64,000 nucleotides of DNA from Alkaliphilus sp. NP8 (GTDB taxonomy: Bacteria > Bacillota > Clostridia > Peptostreptococcales > Natronincolaceae). Made by a program: the position numbers and the translations under genes. Below are positions 14,327-62,698 of this stretch, piece by piece. Positions within the stretch are counted from its first letter, which is position 1; the number at the start of each line of letters is the position of its first letter. The DNA is taken from the NCBI GenBank assembly GCA_015978205.1, contig JADWMM010000002.1:98750-162749 (forward strand), written 5' to 3'. The notes under the pieces are model-generated. The model searched no databases. It saw nothing but the letters and a program-made list of their open reading frames with translations, and was not told where the DNA came from.

Positions 14327-14350
14327 TGAAATATCATATTATTACACAAT

Positions 14351-14436
14351 ATTTCCCTCCGCTGGCATTATCCAGTTCAGGTTGTGGGTCGAAACAACAC
14401 AGCTTCCTCTCAGCCAGATTAAACTAGCTCCCCTTT
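14351..14436 (-). promoter_or_regulatory. TPP (THI-box) riboswitch aptamer
   Basis: Minus strand reads ggggagctagtttaatctgGCTGAGAggaagctgtgttgtttcgACCCacaACCTGAActGGATAATGCCAGCGgAGGGAa, matching the TPP aptamer consensus. Confidence 0.95.
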
Positions 14437-14547
14437 TTTCATATTTTTTTAATCACAATGTCATTATATATCTAATTTTGTATACAGTCAATAAGAGTTA
14501 ATATCCTACTTATTTTTAAAACTCAATTTAAAACAAGCTTCTTATTC

Positions 14548-22880: not shown

Positions 22881-22910
22881 AAAAAAAGCCCTCAAATTTG
22901 AGGGTTTTTT
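22881..22910. terminator. Bidirectional terminator
   Basis: AAAAAAAGCCCTCAAATTTGAGGGTTTTTT. Confidence 0.9.
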
Positions 22911-24163
22911 TACTTTAATCCTATATCTTTACGATAAAAACTTTCATTAAATTGTATTTTATCTATATTTTCATATACTTTTTTTCTAGCATCTATTGTA
23001 TTTTTCCCAATACCTACAACCCCTATTACTCTTCCACCGTTAGTCACAATTTTATTTTCTTCTTCAGCTGTACCTGAATGAAATACTAACAAATCATTAT
23101 CTATATTGTCTAAACCTTCAATCGCAATTCCTTTTTTATATTTATCAGGATATCCACCTGAAGCTAATATTACACATACAGCATGATTTTTACTCCATTT
23201 AATATCTATATCATTTAATTTCTCATCTACTATATGTTCAAATATTTTTATTAAATCAGTTTCTAATCTAGGTAATACTACTTGAGTTTCTGGATCTCCA
23301 AACCTGACATTATATTCTAAAACCTTAGGCCCATTCTTTGTAATCATAAGACCTATAAAAATTATCCCCTTATAATCCATATTTTCTTTTTTTATGCCTT
23401 CTAGTGTAGGTTCTAATATTTCCACTTCTACTTTGTCCGTTATTTCTTCTGTATATATATAATTAGGTGAGTAAGTTCCCATTCCTCCCGTATTAGGGCC
23501 TTCATCATTATCAAAAGCTCTTTTATGATCCTGACTGTTTACCATAGGTACTATTGTTTCCCCATCTGTAAAGCATAATATGGAGGTTTCTACACCTTCT
23601 AAAAATTCTTCTATTACTATTTTATTTCCTGCATCCCCTAATTTTCTATCATTTAATAACTCTTTAATAGTGCTTAATGATTCATTTTTATTTTGACAGA
23701 TAAATACTCCTTTGCCTGCAGCCAGTCCGTCTGCCTTTATTACTACTGGATAAGAATATTTTTCTATAGCTAATTCTGCATCTTTAAAAGTTTTTACTTC
23801 ATCGTATTTAGCTGTAGGAATATTATATTTCTTCATAAAATTTTTAGCAAAGGATTTACTACCTTCTAGCTGTGCTGCATGTTTTGCAGGTCCTATAATT
23901 TTCAAGTTATTTTCCTTAAATGTATCAACTATACCTTCTACTAAGGGAGCTTCCGGTCCTACTATAGTTAAGTCTATATTATTGTTCTTACAAAATTCTA
24001 TAAGCTTGTCTATATTATTATAAGAAATATCTATATTTTTAGCGATTTTACCTATACCTGCATTTCCAGGAGCACAGAATATTTCATCTACTAAAGAACT
24101 TTGATTTAACTTCCATATTAAAGCATGCTCTCTACCACCACTACCTATTACTAGGATTTTCAT
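22910..24163 (-). CDS. purD: Phosphoribosylamine--glycine ligase
   Basis: MKILVIGSGGREHALIWKLNQS; start trimmed to ATG 24163 behind aaagaggtg. Confidence 0.96.
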   Translation of the reverse strand: MKILVIGSGGREHALIWKLNQSSLVDEIFCAPGNAGIGKIAKNIDISYNNIDKLIEFCKNNNIDLTIVGPEAPLVEGIVDTFKENNLKIIGPAKHAAQLEGSKSFAKNFMKKYNIPTAKYDEVKTFKDAELAIEKYSYPVVIKADGLAAGKGVFICQNKNESLSTIKELLNDRKLGDAGNKIVIEEFLEGVETSILCFTDGETIVPMVNSQDHKRAFDNDEGPNTGGMGTYSPNYIYTEEITDKVEVEILEPTLEGIKKENMDYKGIIFIGLMITKNGPKVLEYNVRFGDPETQVVLPRLETDLIKIFEHIVDEKLNDIDIKWSKNHAVCVILASGGYPDKYKKGIAIEGLDNIDNDLLVFHSGTAEEENKIVTNGGRVIGVVGIGKNTIDARKKVYENIDKIQFNESFYRKDIGLK

Positions 24164-24244
24164 ATTTTCACCTCTTTTTTTAAACACTATATCTCTAAAT
24201 AATTAATAAAATATAATTAATTTCACATTAAAAAATAATAAGTT

Positions 24245-25786
24245 TTAATGCTTAAAATGTCTAATTCCTGCAAACACCATAGAAATATCATGTTCATTAC
24301 AAGCATCTATAGAGTCTTTATCTTTAATAGACCCTCCTGGTTGAATAATAGATTTAACTCCTGCTTTTACTGCTTCATCTACACAGTCTCTAAATGGAAA
24401 GAAAGCGTCTGAAGCCATTACACTTCCCTCAAGAGAATGTTTGCTATTTCTAACTGAATTTTGAAGTGCCCATATTCTGCTAGTCTGTCCTGGACCTATT
24501 GCTAAAGTCTGTTTGTTTCTAACTAATACAATACCATTAGATTTAACATGTTTTACTATTTTAAATGCAAATATTAAATCTTCTTTTTCTTTTTTACTTG
24601 GTTGAGATTCTGTTACTACTTCCATTTGTTTTAATAATTGTTTATCCTCTTCTTGTACTAAAATACCACCTTGGACTTTTTTAATCTGTAATTTTTTATT
24701 ATCATTTTTTAATATATTTTTTATTTTTATTAATCGAAGGTTTTTCTTTGTTTGCAATACCTTAAAAGCTTCTTCTTTAAAGTCTGGAGCTATAATTACT
24801 TCTAAGAAAATTTGACTCATATCTTCTGCCATATCTTTAGTAATAGGCTTATTTGCTGCTACTATACCACCAAATATAGATACTGGATCTGATTCATAAG
24901 CCTTATACCAAGCTTCTTCAATATTTTCACCAGATGCTACACCACAAGGGTTAGTATGTTTTAAAGCAACTATTGTCGGTTCTTCAAATTCTTTTAATAA
25001 TTCTAAAGCTCCGTTTGCATCATTTATATTGTTAAAAGATAATTCCTTACCTTGAAGCTGAACTCCATCTACTAAAGTCCCTTCATTTTTTCCTATTTCT
25101 TTATAAAAAGCAGCTTTTTGATGTGGATTTTCTCCATACCGTAAATATTGTACTTTATCATAGCTCAATGTTAGATTTTTAGGAAAATTATTTTCTTCAT
25201 TATTTTCTTTTCTTAAATAATTTGCTATTAAACTATCGTAATATGCAGTTTGCTCAAATACCTTTAACGCTAATTTACTTCTAGTTTCTATAGTTGTATT
25301 TTTATTATTAGATTCTATTTCACTAATAACTTTTTTATAATCATTTGAATCTATAACAACAGTTACATCTTTATAATTTTTAGCCGCCGCCCTTAACATT
25401 GTAGGGCCTCCAATATCTATATTTTCAATAGCATCCTCTAGTGTTACATTTTCTTTTAAAATAGTTTCTTTGAAAGGATACAGGTTAATTATAACTAAAT
25501 CTATAGGATCTATATTAAGCTTTTCTATAGTTTCCATATGGTTAGCATTATTTCTAATAGCTAAAATTCCACCATGAACATTTGGGTGTAATGTTTTTAC
25601 TCTACCATCTAGACATTCTGGAAAATTTGTTACATGTGAAACATCCTTTACATCAATGCCTGCTTCTCTCAATAGTTTTGCTGTACCACCAGTGGAGATT
25701 ATTTCTATATCCAAACTTACAAGCTTATTTGCTAATTCAACAATTCCTTCTTTGTTAGAAACACTTATCAACGCTCTTTTTATCAT
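24245..25786 (-). CDS. purH: Bifunctional AICAR formyltransferase/IMP cyclohydrolase
   Basis: [22 protein letters not shown]...[14 protein letters not shown]; start trimmed to ATG 25786. Confidence 0.96.
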
Positions 25787-25823
25787 TTTATCACCCCGTA
25801 AATATTTATTAGGTATGGATAAT

Positions 25824-26456
25824 TTAAACATTTAGTATCTCAACCTTATTATTTATAACTTTTAATTTATCATCAATAAACAACTTAACTGCTAATGGAA
25901 ATATTTCATGTTCTACTTTTAATACCTTCTCAGATAAACTTTCTACTGTATCATTTAAATCAACATTTACAGCTCTTTGAATAATTATAGGGCCTCCGTC
26001 CATTTCTTCATTAACAAAATGTACTGTTGCTCCTGTTATTTTAACTCCTCTTTCTACTACTGCTTTGTGAACTTTTTTACCGTAAAATCCTTTTCCACAA
26101 AAGCTAGGTACTAAGGATGGATGAATATTAATAATTTTATTTTCATATTTTTTTATAATAGTTATAGGAATAAAGGATAAATATCCTGCTAAAACTATTA
26201 AATCTGTATTTAATTCTTCTAAAAAACTAAACAATGATTTTTCATATTCTAATTCTGATGAATATTGATTTCTATTAATAACTTTAGTTTTAATATTATG
26301 ATTTTGGGCTCTAGTCAATCCATAAACATCTTCTTTATTAGAAATTACTGATACTATTTCACCATTTATATCTTTATTATTGTGAATAGTATATATTAAA
26401 GACTGTAGGTTTGTACCTCCTCCAGAAATCATAACGATGATTTTTACTTTTTTCAT
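25824..26456 (-). CDS. purN: Phosphoribosylglycinamide formyltransferase
   Basis: [41 protein letters not shown]. Confidence 0.95.
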
Positions 26457-27478
26457 ATAATCACCTTTTTATTACCATCTACTATTTGGCCTATAATCTT
26501 TACATTCTCTCCTTGGGTCTTTAGTATTTCTAGAGAGTTTTGTACATCATCTTTACTTACAACTACCACCATGCCTATTCCCATATTAAATGTAGAAAAC
26601 ATTTCTTCTGTACTTATATTTCCTTTTTCTTGCATTAATCTAAATACAGGGGGTATTTCCCAAGCATTTGTATCAATTTTTGCATCTATATTCTCTGCTA
26701 AAATACGAGGAATATTTTCATAAAATCCGCCGCCTGTAATATGGGCAATTCCTTTTACTTTTATATTTTTAATAAGATCTAAAATAGGCTTTGTATAAAT
26801 CTTTGTAGGCTTAAGTAATTCTTCACCTAAAGTTGATTCTAATTCTTCTATATAATCTGTGCTTTTCATATTTAAAATCTCAAAGAAAAGTTTTCTTACT
26901 AAAGAATAACCATTACTATGAATACCGCTAGATGGTAATCCTAAAATAATATCCCCAGGCTTTATATTTTCACCTGTTATAATATTACTTTTATCCACAA
27001 TTCCCACAGCAAAACCTGCTAAATCATATTCAGATTCATTATATAACCCTGGCATCTCAGCAGTTTCTCCACCTATTAAAGCACACTGGGATAATCTACA
27101 ACCTTCAGCTATTCCTCCTACTATTTGAGCAGTTTTTTCTCCTACAAGCTTTCCAGTTGCAATATAGTCTAAAAAGAATAAGGGCTTAGCTCCTTGACAT
27201 AAAATATCGTTAACACACATTGCTACACAATCCTGTCCGATTGTATCATGCTTATCCATCATAAATGCTAATTTTAGTTTTGTTCCTACTCCATCGGTAC
27301 CAGATACTAAAACTGGCTCTTTATATTCCTTAATATCTAAAGAAAATAAACCTCCAAAACTACCTAAATCTGTTAAAACGTTTTTATTAAAAGTACTTTT
27401 AACATGTTCTTTCATCAACTTAACCGCTCTTTGACCTTCATTTACATCTACACCAGCACTTTTATAAGTTATGTTCAT
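26453..27478 (-). CDS. purM: Phosphoribosylformylglycinamidine cyclo-ligase
   Basis: [28 protein letters not shown]; overlaps purN by 4 nt. Confidence 0.96.
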
Positions 27479-27479
27479 T

Positions 27480-29393
27480 CTATAGCCCTCCTATTGAAGT
27501 TGGATAATTTCCACTAAAACAAGCAGAACAAAAATTTTCCTTTGATAACCCTGTAGATTCTAATAATCCATCTAAGCTTATATATCCTAAACTATCAGCG
27601 TCTACTAACTCTCTTATTTCTTCTACAGATTTAGTTGCTCCTAAAAGCTGTTTTTCGTCTGGAGTGTCTACTCCAAAATAGCAGCTATAAGCAACAGGAG
27701 GAGAACTTATTCTAAGATGAACTTCCTTTGCTCCTGCTTTTCTTAATTGATCTACTATTCTTTTACTAGTTGTTCCTCTTACTATAGAGTCATCTACTAA
27801 AACTATTTTTTTTTCTTTTACATTCTGTGTTAAAGGTGTTAACTTTAATTTTAAAGCTCTTTCTCTCGACTTCTGATCTGGTTGTATAAAAGTTCTTCCT
27901 ACATATCTATTTTTAAGCAGTCCTTCTCCAAAAGGCAAACCTAACTCTTCAGCATATCCTAATGCTACAGGAATAGATGAATCTGGAACAGCTATTACCA
28001 TATCTGCATCTATTGGATATTCCTTTGCTAATATTTTCCCTGCATTTTTTCTAGCTTCATATACATTAGCTCCATCTATTACACTATCTGGTCTAGCAAA
28101 ATAAACATATTCGAATACACAAGATGCTCTTTTTTTCTTTTTATAATAATACTTTGAATTAATTCCATCTTTATTAATAATTACAATTTCACCAGGTTCT
28201 ATATCTCTAATAAAATCTGCTCCCATTGCATCTAATGCACAGCTTTCAGATGCAAGAATATAACCTTCATCTAATTTTCCTAAACATAGTGGTCTTAATC
28301 CATAAGGATCTCTAATTCCAATAAGCTCTTTTTCTGTCATAATAACTAATGCATAAGCACCATCAATTAAGTCCATGGTTTTTTCTATTGAATCTAAAAT
28401 ATTTTCATCTTCATATTTAGAAATTAACTTAATAATTATTTCGGCATCTACAGAAGACTTAAAAACTTGGCCTTCACTTTCTAATATTTCTTTCAGTTCA
28501 TTTCCATTTACTAAACTACCATTATGAGATAAAGCTATACTTTTTCTTTTACCTTTAACAAACATAGGCTGAATATTTTCGTGGGTTTTCTTATCATTAT
28601 CCATTCCATACCTTACATGACCTACACTTATATGTCCTTTTAATCCACTCAGTGTTTCAGGATTAAAAACATCAGCTACAAGACCTCTTTTTTTATAAAT
28701 ATAATTATGCTCTCCATCAGTACTAATAATACCTGCACCTTCTTGTCCTCTATGCTGAAGAGAATATAAACCATAGAAAAGTAAACTAGCAGTATTAAGT
28801 TCATCATTGTTGTATATTCCCACTACACCACATTCTTCGCCTAATTTATCACTATATGGTTTGTTTAAAGATTCAAAATGTTTTTCCATGTATTTTTCAT
28901 AGCCAATATCTTCAAGAGCTTTTGCTTTTTCTTCAACTTTACTTGCTAAATATTCTTTGTAATTTATCAATTTGGTTTTTATATTTTCATCTGAAATAGC
29001 AATAATCTTAGCAGATAATATTCCTGCATTTATTGCTCCATTTATTGATACTGTTGCTACCGGTACACCAGATGGCATCTGTACAATGGAGTATAAGGAA
29101 TCTATTCCATTTAAAGTTTTACTTTTAATAGGAACTCCTATTACAGGCAAATTAGTAATAGATGCTACCATACCTGGCAAATGAGCAGCCCCACCTGCAC
29201 CTGCAATAATAACTTTAATACCTCTACCTTCTGCCTTTTTAGCAAAATCATACATTCTTTCAGGAGTACGATGAGCAGATACTATGGTAATTTCATATGG
29301 AATATTTAAATCTTCTAATATTTCTGCTGCTCCTTTCATAACAGGTAAATCTGAGTCACTTCCCATAATAATGCTAACTACTGGATTTTTCAT
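27480..29393 (-). CDS. purEF: Fused PurE (N5-CAIR mutase, about residues 1-165) and PurF (amidophosphoribosyltransferase, from about C188)
   Basis: Single 637-aa [40 protein letters not shown] (PurE) ... [15 protein letters not shown]...[10 protein letters not shown]...[17 protein letters not shown]-type PRPP loop (PurF). Confidence 0.93.
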
Positions 29394-29403
29394 AATATAC
29401 CTC

Positions 29404-30573
29404 CTAACAACTAGTTACTTTAAGGTTTTTATTTATACTTTCAGCCTTATCTAACATTTCTTCTATACTATTACCTAATATAGTTATATGTCCCATCTTT
29501 CTAAACGGTTTTGTACATTCCTTTCCATAGAAATGAAAATATACATCGGTATCTTTAAAAGCATACTCTGACCCTTTTATTCTTGCTTTACCTTCCGCAC
29601 CTTCTTCTCCTAAAACATTAATCATTATGCTTGGCTTTATTAAATATGGCTGAGATAAAGGGTATCCTAAAATAGCTCTTAAATGTTGTTCGAATTGAGA
29701 TATATTACAACCTTCAATAGTATAGTGACCTGAGTTGTGAACCCTTGGTGCTATTTCGTTTATAAATACATCTTCCTTGTATACAAACATTTCTATACAA
29801 AATACACCTGCACCCTCTAAGCTTTCCATCACTTTTAAAGCCAAACTTTCTACTTTTATTTTAATTTTTTCCGATATTCTAGCTGGTACTATAGTTGTTC
29901 TTAATATATTATCTTTATGAATATTTTCAGATAAAGGATAAATCTTAACTTCGCCTTCAGTATTTCGTGCTGCAATTACAGAAATTTCACTAGTAAATGA
30001 AATATATTTTTCAATCATCAACTCTCTATTACTTCCACCTAATGTATTAAAAGCTTTTTCAATGTCGTCTTTGTTTTTTATAACTTTATTTCCTTTACCG
30101 TCATATCCCCCATAGCAATTTTTTAATATTACCGGTAAGCCTTCTTCATTAATATAATTTTCAATATCTGCTATACTACTTACTTTTTCAAAATATGGAG
30201 TTTGAATATTTCGATTTTTAATAAAAGACTTTTGCGTATATTTATTTTGAATCATCTTCAATGTACTAGGTGAAGGTTGAATTTCATATCCTTTTTCGTT
30301 AAGATCTATTAACTTATCCGCATTTATATGTTCTAACTCATAAGTAATTAAATCGCATCTTTGTGCTAATTCTTCTATTTTATTAGCATCATAGTAATCT
30401 CCAATTATTTGCTCATCAGCTATAGAAGCTGCCGAACATTCTTCGTTCGGATCAAGTATAATAAACTTAATACCAAGTTTTTTTCCTTCTAGAATGATCA
30501 TCTTTCCTAGTTGACCACCACCTATAATTCCGATCGTAATAAGATTAGGACTAGTTTTAAGATTATTATCCAT
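29404..30573 (-). CDS. purK: 5-(carboxyamino)imidazole ribonucleotide synthase
   Basis: [32 protein letters not shown]-grasp; immediately upstream of purE-F. Confidence 0.94.
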
Positions 30574-30644: not shown

Positions 30645-31997
30645 TTAGTGAGGTAATAATGTAAATTTAATAATAAATAATATTGCCAATATATAAACTG
30701 TAGGATGAACTTCCTTTGACTTACCTGTTGCTAACTTCATTATTGGATAAAATATTAATCCAGCTGCAATTCCATTAGCTATACTATAAGTAAACGGCAT
30801 CATTGCAATTGTGAAGAAAGCTGGTAGTGCTTCTGAAAAATCATCAAAATTAATTTGTTTAACTGCACCCATCATCAATACACCAACTATAATTAACGCT
30901 GGAGCAGTAGCTTGTGCTGGTACTATTCCTGCAACTGGCGCTAAGAATATTGAAAATAAGAATAATATTCCTGTAGTTACAGATGTTAAACCTGTTTTTC
31001 CACCTTCAGCTACACCTGATGCTGATTCAACAAATGTTGTAACTGTAGATGTACCTAAAATAGCTCCTGCAGAAGTTGCTACAGCATCTGCCATTAAAGC
31101 CTTATTCATATCAGGTAATCTTCCATTTTCATCTAACATTCCAGCTTTAGTTGCTGTACCTATTAAAGTTCCAATAGTATCAAACATATCTACTAAGCTG
31201 AATGAAATAACTACTGTAATTACACTTGTTAATGCACCTACTAAACCAGCTTCCCCAAGATTTAATAAACCTGCAAAGTCCATCTGCATAAATGTTGGAC
31301 TTAAATCAAAAGCAAATTCTGCATTAATAGCTGTATTAGTTACTCCCATAGGAATACCTATAATAGTAGTTACTAATATACCAATTAAAATGGAGCCTTT
31401 ATAATTTCTAGCCATTAATATCCCAGTAATTGCTAAACCAAGAACAGCTAAAACAACTGGAGCGCTTGCAAAGCTTCCAAAGGCTAAAAATGTATCCGGA
31501 TTAGATACAATAATACCAGAACTTGTAAATCCAAGTAATGCAATAAATAATCCAATTCCTCCACTAATAGCATATTTTAAAGAAGTTGGAATTGCATCTA
31601 CAATAGCTTCTCTTACACCGGTAACAGTTAATATAATAAATAAAATTCCGGAAATAAAGATTGCTGCCAGTGCTTGTTGCCATGTATATCCTAACCCCAT
31701 AACTACTCCATATGTGAAGAAAGCATTAAGTCCCATTCCAGGTGCCTGTGCAAAAGGAAGGTTAGCATAAAAGCCCATAATTAATGTTCCAATAGCACCT
31801 GATAAACATGTTGCTATAAATACTGCATCATAATCCATCCCTGCTTTTGAAAGGATATCTGGGTTTACAAATAAAATATAAGCCATTGTTATAAATGTTG
31901 TAATACCTGCTATGATTTCTGTTTTTGCATCAGTTTTTTTCTCTGATAATTTAAAATAGTTGTCTACTGATGATACGTTAGTGTTTTTTGTACTCAT
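30645..31997 (-). CDS. pbuG: NCS2-family purine (guanine/hypoxanthine/adenine) permease, PbuG/AzgA type
   Basis: TEIIAGITTFITMAYILFVNPDILSKAGMDYDAVFIATCLSGAIGTLIMG; preceded by purine-sensing riboswitches. Confidence 0.88.
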   Translation of the reverse strand: MSTKNTNVSSVDNYFKLSEKKTDAKTEIIAGITTFITMAYILFVNPDILSKAGMDYDAVFIATCLSGAIGTLIMGFYANLPFAQAPGMGLNAFFTYGVVMGLGYTWQQALAAIFISGILFIILTVTGVREAIVDAIPTSLKYAISGGIGLFIALLGFTSSGIIVSNPDTFLAFGSFASAPVVLAVLGLAITGILMARNYKGSILIGILVTTIIGIPMGVTNTAINAEFAFDLSPTFMQMDFAGLLNLGEAGLVGALTSVITVVISFSLVDMFDTIGTLIGTATKAGMLDENGRLPDMNKALMADAVATSAGAILGTSTVTTFVESASGVAEGGKTGLTSVTTGILFLFSIFLAPVAGIVPAQATAPALIIVGVLMMGAVKQINFDDFSEALPAFFTIAMMPFTYSIANGIAAGLIFYPIMKLATGKSKEVHPTVYILAILFIIKFTLLPH

Positions 31998-32009: not shown

Positions 32010-32102
32010 CTTAAAATTACGCTGTTGCTTAGCAACGCTTCATGGCGCACTCAATTTTTTAATAAATATTAAAAAATTTCAAGTGCTTAAAATTACGCTG
32101 TT
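32010..32102. repeat. Copy A of a structured intergenic repeat; bounded by 17-nt direct repeats CTTAAAATTACGCTGTT (32010-32026 and 32086-32102)
   Basis: Shares TCATGGCGCACTCAATTTTT and AAAATTTCAAGTGCTTAAAAT exactly with copy B at 38284-38348. Confidence 0.75.
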
Positions 32103-32112
32103 TTTTAAATAA

Positions 32113-32162
32113 TAAAACCCGAGAGGATAGGTTTAAAAGAATGAAACCTACCCGCCCGGGTT
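32113..32162 (-). terminator. Expression-platform terminator of the tandem riboswitch
   Basis: Minus strand CCCGggcgGGTAGGTTTcattcttttAAACCTATCctctCGGGTTTTatt. Confidence 0.8.
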
Positions 32163-32257
32163 TTTATCCCATCGGTGTAACATATAATATATATGCTTGT
32201 ACCGCTTGGTCCGGCATTAATATTTAAAATATTAATCGGAACCCTAGGTACGCTTTC
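32143..32257 (-). promoter_or_regulatory. PRPP riboswitch (ykkC subtype 2 class)
   Basis: Minus strand GAAAGCGTACCTAGGGTTCCG...GCCGGACCAAGCGGTACAAGC...TTACACCGATGGGATAAAAACCCGGGCGGGTAGGTTTC matches ykkC/PRPP core motifs CUAGGGUUCC, CGGxCCxAGCGGUAC, GGGAxAAAAxCCCGGG. Confidence 0.85.
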
Positions 32258-32326
32258 ATTCATAGTCGAATAATTTACGGTTATTCGGTAGAAACTGCTA
32301 AACCATATTATTAGCATTATATAAAT
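32258..32326 (-). promoter_or_regulatory. Purine (guanine-class, C74) riboswitch aptamer
   Basis: Minus strand ATTTATATAATGCTAATAATATGGTTTAGCAGTTTCTACCGAATAACCGTAAATTATTCGACTATGAAT; P1, P2, P3 all pair; GACTATG at J3/1. Confidence 0.93.
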
Positions 32327-32460
32327 TTTGTATTCTTATTTAATTTTCCTAACTCTTAACTACACATTAATAATAACAAATATATTTTTTTAGGTCAATA
32401 GTTTTTTCGAACATTTTTTTATTATTTTTATATATTATATGATTAACCCCGCATTATAAA

Positions 32461-32490
32461 ACAAATCTGACGTGTAACGTTCAGATTTGT
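32461..32490 (-). terminator. Terminator downstream of guaA
   Basis: ACAAATCTGA/TCAGATTTGT perfect 10-bp stem, minus-strand TTTTAT follows. Confidence 0.75.
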
Positions 32491-32501
32491 TAAGTAGGAA
32501 A

Positions 32502-32634
32502 TTGAATACTACTCCCGCCGTAAGTTGCGGATTTCTAACTCCTTTTAGTCGTTATAAACCTGCCCAACTCTGACAGGGGTAGTACCTACAGTTTCTTCTA
32601 CGCTAAATGCTTGATGAAACTGGGTACTACTCCC
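32502..32634 (-). other. Structured 3'-UTR element between guaA and its terminator (possible IS200/IS605 right-end/omegaRNA-like remnant)
   Basis: GTAGTACCcAGTTTC...GAAACTgtaGGTACTAC extended hairpin, CCTG/CAGG, CTAA/TTAG and CCGC/GCGG hairpins; terminates GGGAGTAGTATTCAA; 10-nt direct repeat GGGAGTAGTA at both ends. Confidence 0.45.
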
Positions 32635-33592
32635 ACTCTACTGTAGCTGGTGGCTTAGAAGTTATATCATACACTACTCTATTTACTCCATTAACTTCAG
32701 TAACAATTCTTCTTGACATTGTATCTAAAACATCGTATGGTATTCTATACCAACCTGCTGTCATAGCATCTTTACTTGAAATAGCACGAATACCTACAGT
32801 GTGTACATAAGTTCTTTCATCATTAATTACTCCTACACTTTTGATATTTGGTAAAATTGCAAAATATTGCCATATATCATTATCTAAATTAGCATTCTTA
32901 ATTTCTTCGCGAACAATAGCATCTGCTTCTCGTACAACATTTACCTTTTCATCTGTTATTTCTCCTAATACTCTTACACCTAAACCTGGCCCTGGAAAAG
33001 GTTGTCTCCAAACTAATCCCTTAGATAATCCTAACTCTTCTCCAACAAGTCTTACTTCATCTTTATAAAGAAGTTTAACAGGTTCTACTAGTTCAAACTC
33101 TACATCTTCAGGTAATCCACCTACATTATGATGACTTTTTACTAGCTTGTCTCCTTCAGTGCCACTTTCAATAATATCTGGATATATTGTTCCTTGTACT
33201 AAGAAATCAAAGTTACCTAATTTCTTTGATTCTTCCTCAAATACACGTATAAACTGTTCACCTATGATTTTTCTCTTTTTTTCTGGATCATCTACACCTT
33301 TTAGTTCTTTAAAGAAACGTTCTTTTGCATTTATACGAACAAAGTTCATATTAAATTGATTTTTAAATATATCTTCAACAGAATCTGGCTCATTTTTTCT
33401 CATTAAACCATGATCTACAAAAATACAAGTTAAATTATCACCAATAGCCTTATGAACTAATACTGCTGCTACTGAAGAATCTACTCCACCAGATAAAGCA
33501 CAAATAGCCTTTTTATCTCCTACTTTATTTCTAATCTCATTAACTTGTTCCTCTATATAGGACTTTACGTTTATATTTCTTTCTTCTCTCAT
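32627..33592 (-). CDS. guaA: GMP synthase ATP-pyrophosphatase subunit, lacking the N-terminal glutamine amidotransferase domain
   Basis: [40 protein letters not shown] ... [15 protein letters not shown] ... [10 protein letters not shown]; protein begins about 27 aa before SGGVDSS; guaB ends only about 16 nt upstream. Confidence 0.92.
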
Positions 33593-33607
33593 ATTTATCA
33601 TCCTTTC

Positions 33608-35182: not shown

Positions 35183-35283
35183 CTAATAGTATGAATTATG
35201 ACTATATAAAATCTATACCAAAATATATACAGCTTATGGTGTAAATTTATGAGTATTATTAGATTCACAGTAAAATAATTTCA

Positions 35284-35350
35284 CTCATAGTCGAATGTTT
35301 TTTGGCCATTCGGTAGATACTTCCGAACCATATTATCGGTATTATATGAG
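35284..35350 (-). promoter_or_regulatory. Purine (guanine-class, C74) riboswitch aptamer upstream of guaB
   Basis: Minus strand CTCATATAATACCGATAATATGGTTCGGAAGTATCTACCGAATGGCCAAAAAACATTCGACTATGAG. Confidence 0.9.
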
Positions 35351-35671
35351 TATTGCTAAAAAATATACTATACTTCATTTATTTTGTTCACACTAAAATA
35401 TCAAATTATAGATACATTGTCAAGTAGTTTTATTTATGTTGTTATATTTATAATGTTTAGAATTAACATATACTTATACATGTTTATTTTAAATGTTAGT
35501 ATATTTATATGCTAATTAAGAATATTAGCATACAGTTTTATTTTTTTTGTTTATGTTATCAAAACAATATATTACTGTAACTGTATTGTTTTCCAGTTAT
35601 ATATTCTTTTTTATTTCAAATAATAATACAGGAATGAAAAAAAGATATTTTTAAAGGAGGTAATTTTTATA

Positions 35672-62489: not shown

Positions 62490-62698
62490 CTCATCGCACG
62501 TTATTTTCTTACGTACGACTCAGGCCATGATACACTGTCCCGGGTGTGTTGACACAGTATAAAAACGAGACAATAGGCCTTGTCGCCCGATTCTTTGATC
62601 AAGACATGCTCTGTGAAAATTCCCCCTAGGGCAACCTTTCACTTCATCGCCTCTTAACACACTAATATAGTTTATAATATATCTGAACAAATTTCAAG
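62490..62698 (-). promoter_or_regulatory. S10-operon promoter and structured leader
   Basis: Minus strand TTGAAATTTGTTCAGATATATTATAAACTA promoter-like sequence, then about 170-nt GC-richer leader with several hairpins (e.g. GTGTcaacACAC, CGGGCGACAAGGCC region) before rpsJ. Confidence 0.55.

Follow-up and report, generated by a model that had tools for sequence, protein, structure and literature searches.

A predicted tandem guanine-PRPP riboswitch with a shared strand ahead of the purine permease and pur operon of Alkaliphilus sp. NP8

Organization of the locus

The stretch analyzed here, a 64,000-nucleotide window of contig JADWMM010000002.1 from Alkaliphilus sp. NP8, carries on its minus strand guaB, guaA, a hairpin, a candidate promoter, a guanine aptamer, a ykkC-fold aptamer, a terminator hairpin, a purine permease gene and a series of pur genes, in that order. 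We examined the two aptamers and the terminator, which together are very probably a tandem guanine-phosphoribosyl pyrophosphate (PRPP) riboswitch whose single terminator controls transcription of the permease and pur operon approximately as an IMPLY gate. The hairpin, at about 32490-32461 (minus strand, as are all coordinates below), resembles a terminator for guaA. The candidate promoter (32370..32398) reads TTGACC-17-TATTAT with a TG before the second hexamer and matched the consensus at 10 of 12 positions; the same scan returned 3 sites against 3.1 in shuffled sequence, which is about chance, and the position of the candidate is its sole support.

The guanine aptamer

The guanine aptamer (32258..32326) was identified by the Rfam Purine model RF00167, which matched 32344-32243 with 88.3 bits (gathering score 37; E 1.1e-14 over the window). 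Its P1 stem joins ATTTATA to TATGAAT (32326-32320/32264-32258), P2 lies at 32315-32311/32301-32297 and P3 at 32287-32282/32272-32267, all pairs having been checked, and position 74, at 32265 within GACTA, is the C of guanine aptamers and not the U of adenine aptamers. A first-pass annotation made from the letters alone had placed the aptamer, its three stems and C74 at these positions, and the model score and the pair check bear it out. Many of the family's tandem loci (L128, L129, L131, L135, L147) have a guanine aptamer whose P3 closes with A-U in place of C-G, and C74 is kept.

The ykkC-fold aptamer and its ligand class

Directly downstream, a permissive scan with the Rfam Guanidine-I model RF00442 matched 32258-32151 with 59.7 bits (E 3.8e-10). 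A scan of all 2.67 Mb of the genome gave this one match (E 4.3e-10) and no other. The first-pass annotation had called a ykkC-class aptamer here, and the match bears this out. A gathering-level scan of the window misses this element, its score falling just short of the gathering score of 63, and there was no separate PRPP family among the Rfam matches. A score under gathering is expected of ykkC subtype 2: within the family, genuine guanidine-I elements reach 83-87 bits under this model, and the tandem ones mostly 50-65.

The second aptamer, taken with its P0 helix to span 32139..32261, was assigned to a class by its diagnostic residues, the numbering being transferred by eye from the Thermoanaerobacter mathranii structure paper (PMC6031431) through the anchors A5-G6, ACACC and A103-G104-G105. 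By the published criteria (PMC6031431, PMC5912903), position 49 is a pyrimidine in ykkC subtype 2 and A in the guanidine class, and G at position 96 distinguishes PRPP aptamers from those for guanosine tetraphosphate (ppGpp), which carry A, C, U or no base there; an added P0 helix goes with these residues. Here position 49 is C (32204 in CCAAGCGG) and position 96 is G (32156 in CCCGGGCGG), with C75 at 32177 and A103-G105 at 32149-32147. C49, G96, the extended P0 and the gene context therefore point to a PRPP aptamer (ykkC subtype 2b), a predicted ligand that accords with the label given in the first-pass annotation.

These residues also bear on the two other ligands that the fold could suggest. 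That the best Rfam match is RF00442 would by itself suggest a guanidine-I riboswitch, which we consider so improbable as to be negligible: the score lies under gathering, position 49 is C where guanidine-I conserves A, there is a P0 helix, the sequence reads CACC where CACG is expected, no guanidine genes lie nearby, and the true guanidine-I copy of a congener (L125) reaches 83.6 bits. A ppGpp aptamer (ykkC subtype 2a), which would make the element a guanine-ppGpp gate, is highly unlikely, as a ppGpp aptamer would lack the G at position 96, the genes downstream are for purine and not amino-acid synthesis, and every tandem locus read has G at the equivalent position.

One shared terminator

The second aptamer runs into an intrinsic-type terminator hairpin with a U-rich tract (32104..32170), which folds at -29.0 kcal/mol with a z-score of -6.2, a value that no shuffle equaled; for the full leader of 250 nt the z-score is -4.4. 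The apical stem is 32153-32144/32134-32125, the basal stem 32163-32155/32123-32115 and the U tract about 32117-32108. A consensus terminator scan flagged nothing in the region, probably because the 9-nt loop exceeds the limit of that scan, and a search for a terminator between the two aptamers found none. The terminator overlaps both P3 and the 3′ strand of P0, the latter lying inside its 5′ arm and loop. The terminator shared by both aptamers, as proposed in the first-pass annotation, thus holds, with the correction that the TAGGTTT named there as the closing strand of the aptamer is a terminator strand that overlaps P0.

A strand common to guanine P1 and PRPP P0

The P0 helix pairs GAATGAAA (32261-32254) with TTTCATTC (32146-32139) over 8 bp, and its outer 5′ half, GAAT at 32258..32261, is at the same time the end of the 3′ strand of guanine P1, the four bases pairing both ways. 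Because these bases are shared, the full guanine P1 and the full 8-bp P0 are mutually exclusive; a 4-bp P0 core is compatible with an intact guanine P1. The idea that guanine P1 opposes the closing helix of the PRPP aptamer had already been put forward from the letters, where the two were described as abutting; they do not merely abut but overlap by 4 nt (32261-32258). The P1 stems of the two aptamers stand about 6 nt apart (32257-32252), in the range of 5-7 nt described for tandems (PMC5912903). Like those tandems, the locus has a guanine aptamer directly upstream of the PRPP aptamer and a single shared terminator.

In an unconstrained fold, the transcript up to the terminator loop forms the PRPP aptamer with the 8-bp P0 (-50.4 kcal/mol), and imposing guanine P1 on this pre-terminator transcript carries a penalty of 5.2 kcal/mol and leaves 4 bp of P0. 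With the 3′ arm of the terminator present, the terminator form is best (-65.3 vs -55.5 kcal/mol), and the decision must therefore fall during transcription. The predicted folds suggest that the default state of this switch leans toward ON.

Comparison across tandem loci

Tandem loci were gathered by pattern in named genomes and from relatives, and 49 were parsed, with some pattern matches in other phyla that are guanidine-I RNAs or chance set aside. In most of the 49, as in the window, the shared strand can pair with either partner. The register of P0 was fixed from the P0 core alone and the outer four positions were then scored; they pair at 3.45 of 4 on average in register, against 1.45-2.10 of 4 in other registers, excepting the one that falls back on the P0 core itself. 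When partners were shuffled among loci, 94.9 pairs were obtained against the 100 observed, and 77 of 5000 shuffles were as high. Across 26 distinct rows, 93.3% of the cells of the full P0 are paired, compared with 30-64% when the strand is slid, and its covariation score was reached by 2 of 500 shuffles; for guanine P1, 96.2% of cells are paired and none of 500 shuffles was as high. The clearest single event is in the genus of the window, in which the three strands are altered together: C16, G80 and the downstream C have become U, A and U. Other loci have C16-G80 in P1 and G80-C in P0, whereas this genus has U-A and A-U.

Optimal folds repeat the exclusion, as none of the 49 holds both helices, the P0 extension being chosen in 16 and P1 in 21. 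The median cost of forcing guanine P1 is 0.6 kcal/mol, and the locus in the window, at 5.2 kcal/mol, is one of the two most ON-leaning of all these loci because its guanine P1 is A/U-rich.

These comparisons speak to a further alternative, in which the aptamers act independently on the one terminator and are coupled by steric or purely kinetic effects, with no competition for a strand. Steric clash was left open by Sherlock et al. (PMC5912903), the 4-bp P0 core can form beside an intact guanine P1, and the P0 extension is weak in several loci (L082, L109, L059); against this, the outer half of P0, four pairs made with the P1 strand, shows conservation of its register, and the genus of the window compensates in both partners, so that we judge independent action unlikely, though less so than either of the other ligands.

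Several points weigh against reading the locus as a tandem guanine-PRPP switch with competition for the shared strand. The ykkC match lies under the gathering score, and the residue numbering was set by eye without the crystal sequence file. The covariation of the shared strand is modest, drawn from partly related sequences with shuffles that keep relatedness, and the joint change of three strands happened once, in a single genus. For 12 of the 49 loci, neither the P0 extension nor P1 prevails in the predicted optimum, and the computed energies take no account of tertiary contacts, bound ligands or the speed of transcription.

Some PRPP-like elements lack the upstream partner. L180-L182 were tried as variant tandems and rejected, since each is a PRPP-like singlet that directly follows a promoter and has no guanine aptamer; their P0 is shorter and does not reach into the upstream strand. 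A further singlet PRPP-like element with no guanine aptamer, L127:1501-1598, occurs in a genome that has no full GuaA match. Of 20 genomes sampled from the family, 19 have a ykkC-fold element, true guanidine-I copies counted too, and in many of them it is directly 3′ of guaA.

Proposed mechanism of the tandem switch

For the tandem guanine-PRPP switch, we infer ligand identity and gate logic from published work, in agreement with the ON/OFF logic of the first-pass annotation, and the order of events from the present analysis. High guanine would turn the operon off, and only when PRPP is not also high. As the leader emerges, the guanine aptamer would form first; bound guanine would hold P1, occupying GAAT (32261-32258) and cutting P0 from 8 to 4 bp, and with P0 cut short, the terminator would win, drawing in the 3′ strand of P0 and some of P3. 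Bound PRPP would instead favor the full 8-bp P0, displacing guanine P1 and tying up the 5′ arm of the terminator, and RNA polymerase would read through. When both ligands are absent, the RNA made before the terminator is predicted, in this genome, to favor the P0 form. The switch would face three linked choices, setting guanine P1 against full P0 and P0 against the terminator.

The window also has a singlet guanine riboswitch ahead of guaB (35268-35369, 84.1 bits). It is like the tandem in having TATGAGTGAAA as P1 3′ strand and a copy of ATTTCACTC in the downstream terminator, and differs in that it has no PRPP aptamer between the two strands. In the guaB switch, the terminator strand ATTTCACTC can pair with the P1 3′ strand, and the singlet uses the same strand sequence as the tandem, GAGTGAAAT with ATTTCACTC. 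Tentatively, and with the odds on balance against it, an ordinary guanine riboswitch may have taken the PRPP aptamer into its antiterminator, P0 being the old antiterminator helix and the P1 3′ strand being kept by selection able to pair with two partners equally well. Knappenberger et al. 2018 (PMC6031431) foreshadowed this reading in part.

Downstream genes and neighboring features

The first gene of the operon encodes an NCS2-type purine permease (30645..31997; Pfam Xan_ur_permease, PF00860, E 1e-44), followed by purK (29404..30573; TIGR01161, 423 bits), a purE-purF fusion open reading frame of 637 aa (27480..29393; TIGR01162 at residues 6-160 and TIGR01134 at residues 188-631), purM (26453..27478; TIGR00878, 481 bits), purN (25824..26456; TIGR00639, 203 bits), purH (24245..25831; NF002049, 751 bits) and purD (22910..24187; TIGR00877, 559 bits). 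The commonest first gene after the tandem loci collected is a permease of the same family, which most of those in the order precede, with purE, purK or purD first elsewhere, and the gene context is therefore usual for such a switch. In congener G004, a 730-aa PurL-like gene, named by its N-terminal sequence only, lies between purE and purF; the junction in the window does not have it, and purE and purF are in one frame.

Between the terminator and the permease gene, the leader holds a palindromic repeat of about 90 bp (32010-32101), a small interspersed element inside the riboswitch leader. It has 11 matches in this genome; two congeners have 20 and 10, but it was not found at the corresponding leader place in them. 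Upstream, guaA (32627-33601) encodes 324 aa that cover the ATP-pyrophosphatase half of GMP synthase only (profile positions 191-512). No match to the glutamine amidotransferase half was found over cut-off in the genome, and GuaA is full-length in congeners G004 and G005; the half-length protein is possibly an ammonia-dependent enzyme, or the product of a deletion or assembly fault. Directly 3′ of guaA, a structured-looking stretch of about 130 nt (133 nt; 32490-32627) was considered as a repeat or mobile element and rejected, being single copy with no matches in 19 relatives.

Other regulatory RNAs in the window are a thiamine pyrophosphate riboswitch (14336-14444, 56.8 bits) and an S10-Clostridia ribosomal leader (62580-62655, 42.9 bits). 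Besides the tandem and guaB switches, a third guanine riboswitch in the genome (L001:1501-1602) precedes a gene for a 442-aa permease-like membrane protein.

Relation to known systems

Tandem guanine-PRPP riboswitches with IMPLY logic were described for purine genes by Sherlock et al. 2018 (PMC5912903), and a 2022 review (PMC9481103) lists 192 tandem examples and regards the precise structural changes as still unestablished. The present switch resembles the Bacillus megaterium codA tandem (PMC5912903) in aptamer order, short spacer, single terminator, purine context and predicted IMPLY logic; it differs in preceding a purine permease and pur operon and in its A/U-rich guanine P1. Knappenberger et al. 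(PMC6031431; Protein Data Bank entry 6CK5 is the PRPP aptamer) suggested for the T. mathranii tandem that P0 and guanine P1 exclude each other, and the two helices are predicted to be exclusive in both systems; there the relation came from mFold on one sequence, and here it recurs over a set of 49 loci.

The finding leaves the known picture unchanged and is a modest step, adding one further member together with conservation support for strand sharing. That support comes from many species, for a coupling that was left open in the discovery paper and proposed from one sequence in the structure paper. If the PRPP aptamer was indeed built into an older antiterminator, the default bias of the gate would be tuned by the balance of P1 and P0, and the A/U-rich genus of the window would stand unusually far toward ON. 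The locus would in any case offer a clean example of a gate with two inputs, made wholly of RNA, in front of a purine permease and pur operon.
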